DNA of 63,091 bases. Origin: an uncultured Oscillospiraceae bacterium (GTDB taxonomy: Bacteria; Bacillota; Clostridia; Oscillospirales; Oscillospiraceae). A program made the translations under genes and the position numbers. The notes beneath the pieces are model-generated. The model was not told the DNA's origin. It searched no databases and saw nothing but the letters and a program-made list of their open reading frames with translations. Of this stretch, positions 18,652 through 51,129 are shown one piece after another; the first letter of the stretch is position 1, and the number at the start of each line of letters is the position of its first letter. The stretch spans positions 1-63,091 of the forward strand of contig CALWWW010000011.1 in assembly GCA_944385365.1 (NCBI GenBank), read 5' to 3'.

Positions 18652-18933
18652 GAAGTTCAGCAGGCACACCCATTTGATCTCGTAGGGCGGGACCTGCGTG
18701 TCCCGCCGTGCGGCAACCCCTGGCGGTTACTGGACAGCACTGGGGCGAATCCGCATCCACATCCGTAGGGCGCGGCATCCCTGACGCGCCCCTGGCACAA
18801 TCTGTCCGGGGCCGTCAAGGATGCCGGCCCCTACATTGTTGTTGGTCGATGGTGCAGACCAGCGGCGGGACACATAGGTCCCGCCCTACAAATGCAATTC
18901 AGGTCCCATACTGTACTTCGTATTACCGCCATA
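18652..18933. repeat. Composite REP array, copy A (four GTAG-footed hairpins)
   Basis: This non-coding stretch is a ~282 bp repeat nearly identical to 46194-46476. It holds four palindromic units each with GTAG (or CTAC) at the foot: forward units at 18682-18707 and 18765-18791, reverse units at 18808-18834 and 18864-18889, giving a forward-forward-reverse-reverse layout. The feet match those of the REP palindromes elsewhere in the window. Confidence 0.85.
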
Positions 18934-28456: not shown

Positions 28457-28480
28457 GTAGGGCGGGGGCTTGCCCCCGCC
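28457..28480 (+). repeat. REP palindrome, single copy
   Basis: GTAG foot followed by GGCGGGGGC-TT-GCCCCCGCC, identical to the units at 41206-41229 inside the transposase gene. It lies in the 629 bp gap between the HAD and nifU genes. Confidence 0.85.
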
Positions 28481-35657: not shown

Positions 35658-35731
35658 GTAGGGCGGGGGCTTGCCCCCCGCCGCAATGGGTAACCCATAC
35701 CGAACACGGCGGGGGCAAGCCCCCGCCCTAC
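35658..35731. repeat. Inverted REP pair between miaB and mutS
   Basis: Forward unit 35658-35682 (GTAG foot; stem with one extra C) and reverse unit 35708-35731 (ending CTAC) face each other across a 25 nt spacer that itself has a palindrome ATGGGT-A-ACCCAT. This resembles a paired-REP (BIME-like) arrangement. Confidence 0.85.
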
Positions 35732-38436: not shown

Positions 38437-39156
38437 ATGGCAGTGATGAAACGCAGCGTTCCCGGCCCCTCCATGACCCGGACCGAGCTGATATGCGGTA
38501 TCATTTATCTTCCCATCTATATCATCGGCCTGTCCTTCGGTCTGAATCTGGTGTTCGGCCTGCTGGACGTTCACCCCTCGGACGTGACGGCCAACCTGTG
38601 GTATTTTGCGCTGAATTTCCTCTTTTTGGCCCTGATTTTTCGCCGGTGGCTCCTGGCCTCCCTCCCCACGGGACGGTGGAAGTTCTGGCCGTTTTTGCAG
38701 GCCGTGGTCCTGGGCTTTGCGCTGTATTACGCGTTGTCGTGGCTCCAGGGTGTGATCTATGCGCTGTTTTCCCTCTCGCCGTCCAGCCCCAACGACACTT
38801 ACGTGGACAGTCTGGTCAACGCGAAATTTACGGCCATGGCCATCTCCATTGTGGTGCTGGGGCCCTTTGCGGAAGAAATCCTCTTCCGGGGCGTGATCTT
38901 CGGCAATCTGCGCCGTCTCCATCCGCTGGCGGCCTATATCGTCTCTGTGGTCCTCTTTGCGGCCATCCATGTGGTGAGCTATATCCCCCAAATTGGTTGG
39001 AGCGCCGCGCTGCTGTCGGCCATCGGGTATTTCCCCGGCGGCATTGCCTTGGCCTGGACCTATTCCAAGGCGGATTCCATCTGGGCCTCCATGACGCTCC
39101 ATGCCATTCTCAACGGCATCGGTGTGGGACTACTGCAACTGGAAGGATTGGGTTGA
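38437..39156 (+). CDS. CPBP-family intramembrane metalloprotease
   Basis: Membrane protein of 239 residues with about seven membrane segments. The Abi/CAAX motifs are present: EEILFRGVIFGNLRR (EExxxR), FAAIHVV and the last-helix LHAILNGIG. Such proteins process prenylated or signal-bearing peptides, or confer bacteriocin self-immunity in other genomes. Wedged between mutS and mutL; AAGAAAGGA precedes its start. Confidence 0.9.
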   Translation: MAVMKRSVPGPSMTRTELICGIIYLPIYIIGLSFGLNLVFGLLDVHPSDVTANLWYFALNFLFLALIFRRWLLASLPTGRWKFWPFLQAVVLGFALYYALSWLQGVIYALFSLSPSSPNDTYVDSLVNAKFTAMAISIVVLGPFAEEILFRGVIFGNLRRLHPLAAYIVSVVLFAAIHVVSYIPQIGWSAALLSAIGYFPGGIALAWTYSKADSIWASMTLHAILNGIGVGLLQLEGLG

Positions 39157-39160
39157 TTCT

Positions 39161-41098
39161 ATGGCAGTCATTCAACAGCTGTCGGCCCATGTGGCCGACC
39201 TCATTGCCGCCGGTGAGGTGGTGGAGCGTCCGGCCAGCGTCGTCAAGGAACTGCTGGAAAACGCCGTGGACGCCGGGGCCAAACACATTACGGTGGAGAT
39301 TCAGAACGGCGGCATGACCTTTCTGCGGGTCACCGACGACGGCTGCGGCATGGGCCCCGACGACGCGGAGACGGCCTTCCTCCGCCACGCCACCAGCAAG
39401 CTGCGCTGCGCTGACGATCTGGCGTCCATTGTGACCATGGGATTCCGGGGTGAAGCCTTGGCGGCCATTGCCAGCGTCAGCCGTATCGACCTTTTGACCC
39501 GGCTCACCGGGGCGGCCTCCGGTACGGCCCTCCATCTGGAGGGTGGACAGGTCACGGAACACACCGAGGCCGGATGCCCCGACGGCACCACCATTCTCGT
39601 CCGGGACCTCTTCTACAACACCCCCGCCCGGATGAAATTTATGAAATCCGACGCCACCGAAAGCTCCCATGTCTTTGCCGCCGTCCAGCGGCAGGCCCTT
39701 TCCCATCCCGACGTGGCCATCCGCTTTTTGAAAGACGGCCAGGAGCTGCTCAGCACCCCCGGCGACGGGGAACTTCGCAGCGCCATCTATTGCGTCTACG
39801 GGCGGCAGTTTTCCGCTGGTCTGGTGCCGGTGGAAAGCCATTGGGAGCACTATACCCTCCGGGGCTTCGTGGGCAAGCCCACGGCCACTCGTGGCAACCG
39901 GTCGGGCCAGCACTTTTTCGTCGGCGGGCGGCCCGTCAAGTCCAAGCTGCTGACCTCGGCGCTGGAGCAGGCCTATCAGAATCAGATGATGCAGGGCCGG
40001 TTCCCCTGCTGTGTGCTCCACTTGGATTTGCCGCCCCATCTGGTGGACGTCAATGTGCATCCGGCAAAAACGGAGGTCCGGTTCCTGTCGGAACGGGCCG
40101 TCTTTGACGCCGTCCACTACGGCGTGTTGGGGGCCTTGTCCCATGCGGTGGACCGGCCCGAATTGAAATTGGCCAAGGACCCGGCGCCCACCGCCGCGCC
40201 CCAGCCGAAACCGGGCTTTTTCAAAACCATGGACTCGTCCCAGTTCCGGGAGTTTGCCCAGGCCGTGGCCGACGCCCCCAAGGTCACGCCGAACAAGGAG
40301 ACCATGACGGCGGTGTTTGCGCCCCGCACGGTGGAACCGCCGGTTCCCCCTGTGGCCCCTGTAACACCGGAGGCCCCGGTCGTTGTCCCCTCGGATACCC
40401 AAGATAAGGAACGGCTGGACTTTCTGCCCACGGAAGCAGAAATGCTCTCGCTGGGCTCCCCCACCAATTCGTCGGCGGCAGAAGCTGCGCCGGCAGAGCC
40501 GGAACAGCAAGCTCTTTCCATGCCGGAAGTCCCCGATTACCGCATTGTGGGGGAAGTTCTGAACACCTATATTGTCATTGAACAGAACGGAGAACTGCTG
40601 TTTCTGGACAAGCACGCCGCCCATGAACGGCTGCTGTTTGAAAAGCTGCGGGCCTCGGAGCAGCAGATCATGGGCCAGCAGCTGTTGACGCCCATTCCCG
40701 TGGAGGTCTCCCGCCAGGAGGCGGCGGCCCTGCTGGAAAACGCGGAATTGCTGGAGCAGTTTGCCTTTACGGTGGAGGAATTTGGCGACGGTGCTGTCAT
40801 GGTGCGGCAAATTCCCGCCGATCTGCCCCAGGAGCAGGCCGAAGCCACCCTGCAATCGTTGGCCACGGCATTGTCTGAGGGCCGCCGGGCAGACCCGACA
40901 GCTCTGCGGGACCATATTCTCCATTCCATTGCCTGTAAAGCGGCCATCAAGGCCGGTTGGCACACCACCGACGCCGAACTGGCCGATCTGGTGGCCCAGG
41001 TCCTGTACCGGCCCGACATCCAGCATTGTCCCCATGGCCGCCCGGTCTGCATCACCGTCACCCGCAGCCAGTTGGAACGCCGGTTTGGAAGGGGATAA
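39161..41098 (+). CDS. mutL: DNA mismatch repair endonuclease MutL
   Basis: 645 residues. The GHKL ATPase has LIAAGEVVERPASVVKELLENAVDAGA, DDGCGM, HATSKL and GFRGEALAAIASVSR; a Pro/Ala-rich linker lies at about 335-470. The C-terminal dimer/endonuclease domain has DKHAAHERLLFE (DQHAxxExxxxE type with Lys for Gln), ACKAAIKAG and CPHGRP, so nicking activity is expected as in organisms lacking MutH. It starts at 39161 just after the CPBP stop. The transposase gene follows after 2 nt. Confidence 0.96.
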   Translation: MAVIQQLSAHVADLIAAGEVVERPASVVKELLENAVDAGAKHITVEIQNGGMTFLRVTDDGCGMGPDDAETAFLRHATSKLRCADDLASIVTMGFRGEALAAIASVSRIDLLTRLTGAASGTALHLEGGQVTEHTEAGCPDGTTILVRDLFYNTPARMKFMKSDATESSHVFAAVQRQALSHPDVAIRFLKDGQELLSTPGDGELRSAIYCVYGRQFSAGLVPVESHWEHYTLRGFVGKPTATRGNRSGQHFFVGGRPVKSKLLTSALEQAYQNQMMQGRFPCCVLHLDLPPHLVDVNVHPAKTEVRFLSERAVFDAVHYGVLGALSHAVDRPELKLAKDPAPTAAPQPKPGFFKTMDSSQFREFAQAVADAPKVTPNKETMTAVFAPRTVEPPVPPVAPVTPEAPVVVPSDTQDKERLDFLPTEAEMLSLGSPTNSSAAEAAPAEPEQQALSMPEVPDYRIVGEVLNTYIVIEQNGELLFLDKHAAHERLLFEKLRASEQQIMGQQLLTPIPVEVSRQEAAALLENAELLEQFAFTVEEFGDGAVMVRQIPADLPQEQAEATLQSLATALSEGRRADPTALRDHILHSIACKAAIKAGWHTTDAELADLVAQVLYRPDIQHCPHGRPVCITVTRSQLERRFGRG

Positions 41099-41100
41099 TC

Positions 41101-41586
41101 ATGGAAAAGCGAAAGCGCCCACGATTAAAGCACTATGATTACAGCCAAGCAGGCTACTATTTTATCACCATCTCTGTTGCACAAAGGATGCCTGTTTTGT
41201 CCCGTGTAGGGCGGGGGCTTGCCCCCGCCGAACTGCCCACCGTCTCGCTGACTGCTATCGGCCATATCGCATATGTTCAGTTGATGTCCCTGCCCAAGCG
41301 GTATCCCAATTTGCGAATTGAGCGCTGCGTAATTATGCCGGATCATATTCACATGATTCTATGCTTTGAGGAGACGGCGGGGGCAAGCCCCCGCCCTACG
41401 GTTCCGGATATCATCGGTGCATACAAATCCCTGGCAACACGTGCTATCAATCAAGCAATGCACACACCGGGAAAGCAGTTTTTTCAGCCCTCTTTCTACG
41501 AACATATCATACGCTCAGAAGCATCCTATATTGAGATTTGTCGTTATTTGGATGAAAATCCACAAAAATGGCTGCTCCGTAAGTAA
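41101..41586 (+). CDS. REP-associated tyrosine transposase (RAYT) containing two REP sequences
   Basis: Y1/HUH-family single-domain nuclease of 161 residues. KRPRLKHYDYSQAGYYFITI is the family start; the metal-binding HUH motif is MPDHIHMIL (His82, His84); the catalytic Tyr is in SFYEHIIRSEASYIEICRYL (Tyr133 or Tyr143), and DENPQKW closes the domain. Codons 36-43 (VGRGLAPA) are exactly a forward REP unit and codons 92-100 (AGASPRP) contain the inverted unit, so two palindromes flank the HUH region without breaking the frame. It lies 2 nt after mutL and 13 nt before miaA, interrupting an otherwise standard operon. It is expected to recognise the GTAG foot and hairpin of REPs, as shown for the E. 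coli relative; activity here is inferred. Confidence 0.9.
   Translation: MEKRKRPRLKHYDYSQAGYYFITISVAQRMPVLSRVGRGLAPAELPTVSLTAIGHIAYVQLMSLPKRYPNLRIERCVIMPDHIHMILCFEETAGASPRPTVPDIIGAYKSLATRAINQAMHTPGKQFFQPSFYEHIIRSEASYIEICRYLDENPQKWLLRK
41206..41229 (+). repeat. REP palindrome inside the RAYT gene (forward)
   Basis: GTAG foot, then GGCGGGGGC-TT-GCCCCCGCC. 24 nt long, hence eight in-frame codons. Identical to the unit at 28457. Confidence 0.9.
41376..41399 (-). repeat. REP palindrome inside the RAYT gene (reverse)
   Basis: Exact reverse complement of the unit at 41206-41229, ending in CTAC. The pair encloses the 146 nt that encode the HUH motif. Confidence 0.9.
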
Positions 41587-41599
41587 GGAGGAACGCCCT

Positions 41600-42547
41600 A
41601 TGCACGATATTATCGCCGTGGTGGGACCCACGGCGTCGGGAAAAACGGGTCTGGCCATCGGGCTGGCCAAGGCGCTGGACGGCGAGGTGCTGTCCTGTGA
41701 CTCCATGCAGCTCTACCGCCACATGGACATCGGCACCGCCACGCCCACGGCGGCGGAAATGGACGGCATCCCCCACCACATGATGAACGTCATTGACCCG
41801 GCGGAGGACTTTTCCGTCAGCCGCTATGTGGAGATGGCAGACGAATGTCTTCGGGACATTCTGGCGAGAGGAAAACGGGCCATTGTCTGCGGCGGCACGG
41901 GGCTGTATTTGGACAGCCTGCTGCTGGGCCGCTCCTTTGCCTGTCCCGCCACGGGCCACCGCCGCCGTCTGGAGGAACAGGCGGAACGGGAGGGCATCGA
42001 GCCCATCCGGGAATTTTTACGCACCGTGGACCCGGATTCCTATGAACGGCTTCCCGCCGGAGACCACCGGCGCATTATCCGGGCCGCCGAGGTCTATCTG
42101 GAAACGGGCGTCACCATCACCGAACACAACCGCCGGACCAAACTGCTGCCGCCCCGCTACGAAGCCCGGTGGATTGGTCTGGATTTTGCCAACCGCGCCG
42201 CCCTCTACGCCCGCATCGACCGGCGGGTGGAGCAGATGATGGAGCAGGGCCTGCTGGAGGAAATCCAGGCCCTGCTGGACCGGGGCGTTCCGCCCACGGC
42301 CACCAGTCTCCAGGCCATCGGCTACAAAGAGCCCATGGCGGCCCTGCGGGGGGAGATCACCATGGCCGAAGCCGTGGCGAAAATCCAGCAGGAGTCCCGC
42401 CGCTATGCCAAACGGCAGCTGACATGGTTTCGCCGCAACCCCGCCATCTCCTGGATTGTCCAGCCCGACGAGCCCGACGCCCGTCAGACGCTGAAAACGG
42501 CCCTGCATCTGCTGCGGGACGGCATTTCGGGGGATTTCGCACCATAG
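41600..42547 (+). CDS. miaA: tRNA dimethylallyltransferase
   Basis: Transfers the dimethylallyl group to A37 of tRNA, 315 residues. P-loop GPTASGKTGLA, DSMQLYRHMDIGTA, GGTGLYLDSLL and RRYAKRQLTWFRR are family motifs. The start at 41600 follows AAGGAGG. Its product is the substrate for MiaB encoded upstream. hfq follows, as in many bacteria. Confidence 0.97.
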   Translation: MHDIIAVVGPTASGKTGLAIGLAKALDGEVLSCDSMQLYRHMDIGTATPTAAEMDGIPHHMMNVIDPAEDFSVSRYVEMADECLRDILARGKRAIVCGGTGLYLDSLLLGRSFACPATGHRRRLEEQAEREGIEPIREFLRTVDPDSYERLPAGDHRRIIRAAEVYLETGVTITEHNRRTKLLPPRYEARWIGLDFANRAALYARIDRRVEQMMEQGLLEEIQALLDRGVPPTATSLQAIGYKEPMAALRGEITMAEAVAKIQQESRRYAKRQLTWFRRNPAISWIVQPDEPDARQTLKTALHLLRDGISGDFAP

Positions 42548-42611
42548 ACATGGTAGATTATGGGTATCCCATTCCCGGCCCCAGGCCGGAACAGACAAAG
42601 GAGAGATACCC

Positions 42612-42851
42612 ATGCAACACCCCTACAATTTACAGGAACAATTTCTCAAAGCCGTCCGCCGGGAGCAGTCCCAGGTCACCGTTTTTTTGATGAACGGCTT
42701 CCAGCTGCGCGGCGTGGTCACCGGCTACGACAACTACGCCGTCATCATCCAGTCGGAGGGGCGGCAGAACATGATTTACAAGCACGCCATATCCACCATA
42801 TCTCCCGCCGTCGCCGTGTCGCTGCGGGAGCAGACGACGCCCGCGCCGTGA
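42612..42851 (+). CDS. hfq: RNA chaperone Hfq
   Basis: Sm-like protein of 79 residues forming hexamers that bind small RNAs and mRNAs. LQEQFLKAVRREQSQVTVFLMNGFQLRGVVTGYDNYAVII is Sm1 and the Sm2 motif is YKHAIST. AAAGGAG precedes the ATG. Downstream of miaA, as is usual. Confidence 0.97.
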   Translation: MQHPYNLQEQFLKAVRREQSQVTVFLMNGFQLRGVVTGYDNYAVIIQSEGRQNMIYKHAISTISPAVAVSLREQTTPAP

Positions 42852-46193: not shown

Positions 46194-46476
46194 GAAGTTC
46201 GGCAGGCACTCCCATTTGATCTCGTAGGGCGGGACCTGCGTGTCCCGCCGTGCGGCAACCCCTGGCGGTTACTGGACAGCACTGGGGCGAATCCGCATCC
46301 ACATTCGTAGGGCGCGCGGCATCCCTGACGCGCCCCTGGCACAATCTGTCCGGGGCCGTCAAGGATGCCGGCCCCTACGTTGTTTGTCGATGGTGCATAC
46401 CAGCGGCGGGACACATAGGTCCCGCCCTACAAATACAATTCAGGCCCCGCATACTGTACTTCGCATAACCGCCATA
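46194..46476. repeat. Composite REP array, copy B
   Basis: Nearly identical to 18652-18933: same four GTAG-footed hairpins in forward-forward-reverse-reverse order, differing by a handful of substitutions and indels of 2-3 nt. It fills the 400 bp gap between divIVA and the CorC-like gene; no protein gene is supported in this interval. Confidence 0.85.
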
Positions 46477-51053: not shown

Positions 51054-51129
51054 TGTAGGGCAGGAGCTGGCCCCTGCCGTGTTCGGTACGGTGTCGGTTG
51101 ATGGCGGCGGGGGCAAGCCCCCGCCCTGC
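51054..51129. repeat. Inverted REP pair between infB and rbfA
   Basis: A degenerate forward unit (51054-51077, GTAG foot with stem GGCAGGAGC/GGCCCCTGCC-like) faces a well-kept reverse unit (51106-51129, ending CTGC). It lies inside the nusA-infB-rbfA operon. Confidence 0.75.

Follow-up and report, generated by a model that had tools for sequence, protein, structure and literature searches.

RAYT genes have been described as always flanked by two inverted REPs (Nunvar 2010; PMC2817692), an arrangement referred to here as the classical REPtron, with E. coli yafM/TnpAREP as its example. Two inverted REPs and the spacer between them make up a REPIN (PMC6006769, PMC3116915), and TnpAREP is reported to process the REP, not the complementary iREP (PMC8266576). 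REPs also occur within tnpAREP genes themselves; in subclass 2.4 of Quentin 2018 they are in frame, generally lie between HuH and Y, and come in addition to flanking REPs, and the insertions were regarded as peripheral, with possibly little impact on the protein (PMC6006769). REPs inside unrelated genes are known as well (PMC3733652).

REPs within tnpA-REP genes are already in print, and the addition made here is a paired, inverted layout around the HUH motif. In the passages of the literature examined, we found no description of a two-site, inverted, co-varying layout, a negative result that extends to those passages only. The term RAYT does not occur in the text of the RepRanger paper.

Two in-frame REPs in a RAYT-type gene

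The locus lies in the window, the whole stretch of 63,091 nucleotides analysed here from an uncultured Oscillospiraceae bacterium. The features on which the comparison rests are the following.

41101..41586, + strand: RAYT-type Y1/HUH transposase gene, an open ORF of 161 aa plus stop
41206..41229, + strand: site 1, in-frame REP with its GTAG foot on the sense strand, residues 36-43
41230..41375, + strand: segment between both REPs, 146 nt, coding for the HUH core
41344..41352, + strand: HUH motif codons His82, Ile83, His84; both His are invariant in 56 aligned sequences
41376..41399, - strand: site 2, in-frame REP with its GTAG foot on the antisense strand, within residues 92-100
28457..28480, + strand: dispersed copy, an identical 24-mer by sequence match
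35658..35731, both strands (35658-35682 + and 35708-35731 -): REPIN-like inverted pair of family 1 with a 25-nt spacer and GTAG outward as in the gene

The sequence of site 1 (41206-41229) is GTAGGGCGGGGGCTTGCCCCCGCC, of which site 2 (41376-41399) is the exact reverse complement. An earlier note, made from the letters of the window, had described two such exact reverse complements in a RAYT gene, identical to a copy at 28457, encoding residues 36-43 and about 92-100 and flanking H82 and H84; all of this was confirmed. Its further statement that a unit length of 24 nt keeps the frame is right for the window ORF, which is intact, and does not hold generally: in relatives, the internal units are mostly 23 to 26 nt long and fall in more than one reading phase. 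In a protein model, site 1 corresponds to the turn between strands 34-37 and 47-50, and site 2 to the loop that leads from the HUH strand (82-89) to helix 101-120.

Exact inverted repeats reach a length of 25 nt in the window gene, compared with no more than 11 in any of 300 synonymous-codon shuffles. Across 160 relatives, GTAG hairpins numbered 138, where synonymous shuffles predict 0.7, and a chance origin of the internal hairpins was rejected by this comparison. The window gene begins 2 nt after mutL and ends 13 nt before miaA. It sits within a mutL-miaA-hfq gene row (window 39101-42851).

A Y1_Tnp domain with HUH was recognised in the window protein by Pfam (25.8 bits, cut-off 23). The best NCBIfam model is NF047646, on which the protein scores 61.1 bits, below the equivalog cut-off of 80, and we therefore term the gene RAYT-type and not a certified equivalog; the second RAYT of the window genome (C32) scores 73.5 bits on the same model. 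In agreement with a RAYT/TnpAREP assignment, a cognate GTAG REP family is dispersed in the genome. The 24-mer of the gene, designated family 1, occurs at 83 places of the 2.58-Mb assembly with at most one mismatch, the gene's own two counted, and the reversed pattern used as a control gave 0 matches.

The window gene resembles the classical REPtron in that inverted cognate REPs are tied to a RAYT gene and dispersed in the genome, and differs from it in having no flanking REP (PMC2817692): no REP pair flanks the gene, and the nearest other listed family-1 place is 35708-35731. Given the tight gaps to its neighbours, the absence of flanking REPs, and the lack of two-sided hairpins around two-site relatives (see below), we do not file it as a classical REPtron. 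With the REPIN it shares two inverted REPs and a spacer, which here differs in being 146 nt of sequence coding for the HUH core (PMC6006769, PMC3116915). This layout was seen inside the gene; among the matches listed, those outside it covered only the REP parts, so that a unit with the 146-nt spacer was not seen to recur. Like intragenic REPs and Rickettsia palindromic elements, the two units are palindromic repeats in frame within a gene; unlike those, which are scattered over unrelated genes and mostly at different sites (PMC3733652), they occupy two fixed sites in the gene of their presumed cognate enzyme. Site 2 (41376-41399) is an in-frame REP between HUH and Tyr, as in subclass 2.4, with which the gene also shares an HUH-Y1 protein, in-frame GTAG REPs, and a variable HUH-Tyr loop (PMC6006769).

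The two-site layout among relatives

RAYT homologues were found in 89 of 300 genomes of the window genome's family and in 32 of 398 genomes of its phylum, and 80 genome-contig loci with organism names provided a further source. Regions were taken for the first 60 family rows, 60 later ones, plus two, and for 20 phylum rows. The first set comprised 161 of 182 extracted genes, after removal of three without a HUH match and 18 duplicates. The second set came from the 60 later family rows, of which 54 were classified (five without HUH and one duplicate were dropped). Site-to-site scores used 156 of the 161 genes and the synonymous-shuffle test 160; stem changes were counted in copies of equal length only, and loci with short flanks were left out of the flank counts.

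GTAG/GTGG hairpins stood both before and after the HUH codons in 80 of the 161 relatives. The pair was inverted in 79 of these 80, with 74 F/R (forward at site 1, reverse at site 2), three R/F, and two F/FR, in which a forward copy is followed by an overlapping pair; the remaining gene was a weak R/R. Five genes had site 1 only, 35 had site 2 only, and in 41 no internal REP was detected. All 26 two-site genes of the second set were inverted. Records of a Flavonifractor (L112) and a Gemmiger (L125) also show the layout. The relatives here depart from subclass 2.4, where internal REPs are added to flanking ones (PMC6006769), since half of the first set has matching REPs in inverted orientation both before and after HUH, and flanking REPs are mostly absent.

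Site-2-only genes include cyanobacterial (L186), Chloroflexi (L177, L179), planctomycete (L180), and Bacteroidota-type (L168, L171) loci. L177, L179, and L180 have two hairpins in the single post-HUH loop, and L168, L171, and L186 one double-foot hairpin; either arrangement, confined to one loop, is nearer to the published picture. The flipped R/F groups, L049/L126 and L055, stand apart on the tree. The tree is poorly resolved, with 21 of 158 inner branches starred; it needs 31 changes, yet starred branches force only 4, which speaks neither for nor against a single origin of the two-site layout.

Repeat arrays were also observed in RAYT loops. The G653 genes L222, L220, and L221 bear very long in-frame arrays in the post-HUH loop, with about 25 GAPCQN-like repeats in L222, and the REP-encoded peptide is repeated in tandem in L150 (1271-1897) and L189 (10001-10579).

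Match of the two copies to each other and to their genome

Of the 63 genes collected first, internal hairpins were present in 56, and in 45 of these at both sites. In these 45 genes, the similarity between a gene's own 5' and 3' copies was 0.90, compared with 0.28 for foreign copies (10,000 permutations, maximum 0.42). A gene's own palindrome was also found in its flanking DNA, with 47 matches in 27 of the 56 genes, whereas permutation gave a mean of 4.3 and a maximum of 19. When site 1 was compared with the reverse complement of site 2 with no hairpin detection (156 genes), the score was 17.0 for own and 7.4 for foreign pairs, and 6.4 for control segments. A site-to-site score of at least 14 was reached by 94 of the 156 genes and by 3.6% of foreign pairs. 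Forty distinct stems occur among the 80 two-site genes, and on a weak tree they imply no fewer than 45 changes. The copies were identical in 40 of 76 genes and in 10 of 26 in the second set; where copies of equal length differed, 16 compensatory stem changes in 13 genes were counted, against eight pairing-breaking changes in seven genes.

Three RAYT-gene palindromes were followed over 12 genomes. They were frequent in carriers (83, 24, and 24 places for family 1, 30 for the second palindrome, 12 and 29 for the third) and absent or rare in most other genomes. Exceptions were G039, with 16 places of the first palindrome, G297, with 3 of the first and 8 places of the third, and G171, where the third occurs at 74 places. 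Five congeners without the window gene had 14, 11, 0, 0, and 0 family-1 places; a RAYT homologue was found only in G053 of these five, and it bears a different REP. The second RAYT of the window genome likewise has its own, different internal palindrome, with more than 50 matches elsewhere.

The earlier note had asked whether the internal palindromes of homologues match the REPs of their own genome; the match to the own genome exceeds that to others, with the three exceptions above. REP and transposase are thus physically linked, since the internal palindromes match their own genome's DNA more, and the units of the window gene belong to the 83-place family of that genome.

No RAYT matching these REP families was found in G039 (16 copies) or G171 (74 copies). 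Two further RAYT loci were checked for the 74-copy family of G171; one had another palindrome, and in the other no GTAG hairpin was detected. In the window genome (G000), families 3 to 5 had no cognate among the two RAYTs compared; the genome also has a third Y1_Tnp gene (C54). The proposition that every dispersed REP family has its RAYT was not borne out for G171, for G039, or for families 3 to 5 of G000. G171 and G000 thus have REP families of dozens of copies for which a search of the assembly itself gave no matching RAYT. One of them, family 3 of G000 (GTAGGGCGCGGCATCCYTGACGCGCC), is present at 54 places (at most one mismatch, by strand counts). It is carried inside RAYT L317 of the congener G053, at site 1 only, and occurs at 37 places in that genome.

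Other REP-bearing sequences were noted in the window genome. The family-1 copy at 51106-51129 of the window has a GCAG foot, not GTAG, and a few more such copies are listed. Two closely similar compound elements (window 18682-18889 and 46224-46430) consist of nested REPs of different families, with a family-2 REP outside and REPs of other GTAG families inside, inverted; more pairs of family-2 copies lie about 180 bp apart elsewhere in the genome. Of 122 REPs, 98 fall inside ORFs of at least 120 aa, a count that is uninformative because mechanical ORFs overlap on both strands.

Silent-site conservation and peptide change

Fourfold third-base identity, taken where the same amino acid is encoded and backbone identity is below 60%, was 0.72-0.78 inside the palindromes and 0.29-0.31 outside. 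Restricting the comparison to 15 genes that all encode VG[RQ]GLAPA gave 0.87-0.88 in the palindromes against 0.28-0.30 outside. For the codon counts at both sites, genes were picked by peptide and not by DNA. The Val codon of site 1 was GTA in 88 of 91 genes (22% elsewhere; 26 of 28 in the second set), and the Gly that follows it was GGG in 87 of 91 (26% elsewhere). Similarly, the Pro codon of site 2 was CCT in 96 of 104 (19% elsewhere; 22 of 27 in the second set). These conserved silent bases fall in the GTAG foot and at the beginning of the stem. The foot of site 2 is on the antisense strand only, and its silent base shows about the same degree of conservation as that of site 1.

Two reading phases were used by 70 and 6 of 76 genes at each site; in the second set of 26, the counts were 23 and 3 at one site and 19, 6, and 1 at the other. 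The earlier note had held that homologues keeping the peptide without the palindrome would argue for a coincidental match. The outcome was the opposite, with palindrome and foot kept and the peptide changed. A varied peptide, a varied phase, and silent conservation together indicate that the peptide is not what is kept, and peptide conservation as the driver was rejected on this basis. Selection could account for the silent conservation, as could repeated overwriting from the REP pool of the genome, or the two together. In a strand test of DNA against RNA, G.T and A.C pairs numbered 14 versus 9 at site 1 and 14 versus 6 at site 2, and 7 versus 9 and 7 versus 6 when only distinct palindromes were counted.

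REPs outside and inside the gene

No own REP lay within 600 nt in 61 of 71 two-site genes, and GTAG hairpins on both sides within 300 nt were found in 0 of 75 (one side in eight). In genes without an internal REP, hairpins within the same 300 nt were present on both sides in 8 of 39, on one side in 9, and on neither in 22. A forward cognate REP lay upstream of 8 of 20 -/R genes, which have only the reverse copy at site 2, compared with 3 of 69 F/R genes (p 0.0002, a nominal value that overstates the significance because the genes are related). The other 12 of the 20 had no upstream forward cognate within 400 nt; an upstream reverse cognate and a downstream forward cognate were each found in 2 of 20. 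The same contrast, stated beforehand for the second set, was not significant there (1 of 1 -/R versus 3 of 23 F/R, p 0.17), with a single -/R gene available.

Under a pooling by missing side that was framed post hoc, the partner was outside in 10 of 27 genes versus 3 of 69, and in the second set in 4 of 5 versus 4 of 23 (nominal p 0.015). Over both sets, and again by post hoc pooling, 14 of 32 single-site genes had the partner outside on the missing side. Of the genes with no internal REP, 6 of 39 had a matching, outward inverted flanking pair (3 of 39 the opposite way round), as did 8 of 22 in the second set. We read these arrangements as a single bracket around the HUH codons in three states; the trade-off is partial, as many single-site and no-site genes have no visible partner.

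Discussion

We propose that the window gene and its two-site relatives represent an internalised REPtron, in which two cognate REPs in inverted orientation enclose the HUH segment and are retained as a substrate at the DNA level. On the sequence evidence, we place the probability of this reading at about 60%. It starts from the position of the two REPs, their inverted orientation and mutual match, their membership of a dispersed family, the silent-site conservation, and the rarity of a flanking pair. In the classical REPtron the pair lies outside the gene; here both copies are part of the coding sequence and map to loops of the modelled protein, one on either side of the HUH codons. Since the GTAG feet point outward in the gene, each DNA strand shows one REP hairpin, and the enzyme may bind or cut the internal copies while the gene is single-stranded, for example during replication. 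The dispersed REPs could also derive from the internal pair as their donor or template, and the pair would travel with the enzyme on transfer. Concerted evolution, through gene conversion or RAYT-driven exchange, may keep the copies alike.

Internal REPs could also arise by self-infestation without function, whereby a RAYT inserts REPs near its own gene and only in-frame loop insertions survive, unused. Consistent with this, intragenic REPs are known in unrelated genes (PMC3733652), both sites are loops of the protein model, and little effect on the protein was considered possible for subclass 2.4 (PMC6006769). However, inserts under no selection would be expected to decay, or to differ from gene to gene in where they lie and which way they point, and the two fixed sites, the inversion of 79 of 80 pairs, their mutual match, the conserved silent foot bases, and the compensatory stem changes make self-infestation unlikely. 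The earlier note had suggested autoregulation. On that reading, RAYT would bind the hairpins in its gene or its mRNA and thereby hold down its own synthesis. The hairpins are cognate and predicted to be stable as RNA (-17.8 and -18.6 kcal/mol), and the minimum-energy fold of the whole transcript pairs site 1 with site 2. Nonetheless, the GTAG foot of site 2 is antisense only and its silent base is conserved all the same; as TnpAREP is reported to process the REP and not the iREP (PMC8266576), an mRNA target cannot explain both sites, and the transcript as binding target was not sustained. Divergence between the copies, moreover, keeps the local hairpins and breaks the long-range stem. We regard autoregulation as quite unlikely, and its mRNA form is less likely than an internalised REPtron; repression at the level of the gene's DNA is conceivable.

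The predicted RNA structures, the hairpins and the stem between site 1 and site 2, might instead act as a brake on the mRNA by lowering translation or attracting RNase III, with RAYT binding irrelevant. Such a brake would have no need of an unpaired GTAG foot, or of any resemblance to the REPs dispersed through the genome, which makes it very improbable. The long-range mRNA stem as a conserved unit is in turn disfavoured by the 16 compensatory within-hairpin changes between copies. A role at the protein level, with the REP-encoded loop peptides selected, for example, as REP contacts, fits the presence of both loops in the protein and their co-variation with the REP, the latter being given by construction. 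This role is scarcely credible in view of peptides that differ widely and are read in different phases while silent sites are conserved.

The internalised REPtron can be taken a step further, tentatively and short of what we would call probable. The gene may be its own transposon end, the pair having moved inward stepwise (outside-outside, outside-inside, inside-inside), with each step bracketing the HUH segment. The core would then sit within a REPIN-like unit, and enzyme and substrate would evolve as one piece, inseparable by transfer or deletion without loss of the enzyme.

The layout bears on the question of how REPs remain attached to a single transposase and how the specificities of the two shift in concert. 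If the internal pair is the substrate, the coding sequence of each such gene would display the REP that its enzyme recognises. Any genome would then yield its cognate pairs on reading, the many natural pairs would allow specificity to be modelled, and function would be testable through synonymous recoding. One and the same stretch here carries a protein code and a DNA site of the transposase type, the latter maintained at silent positions.
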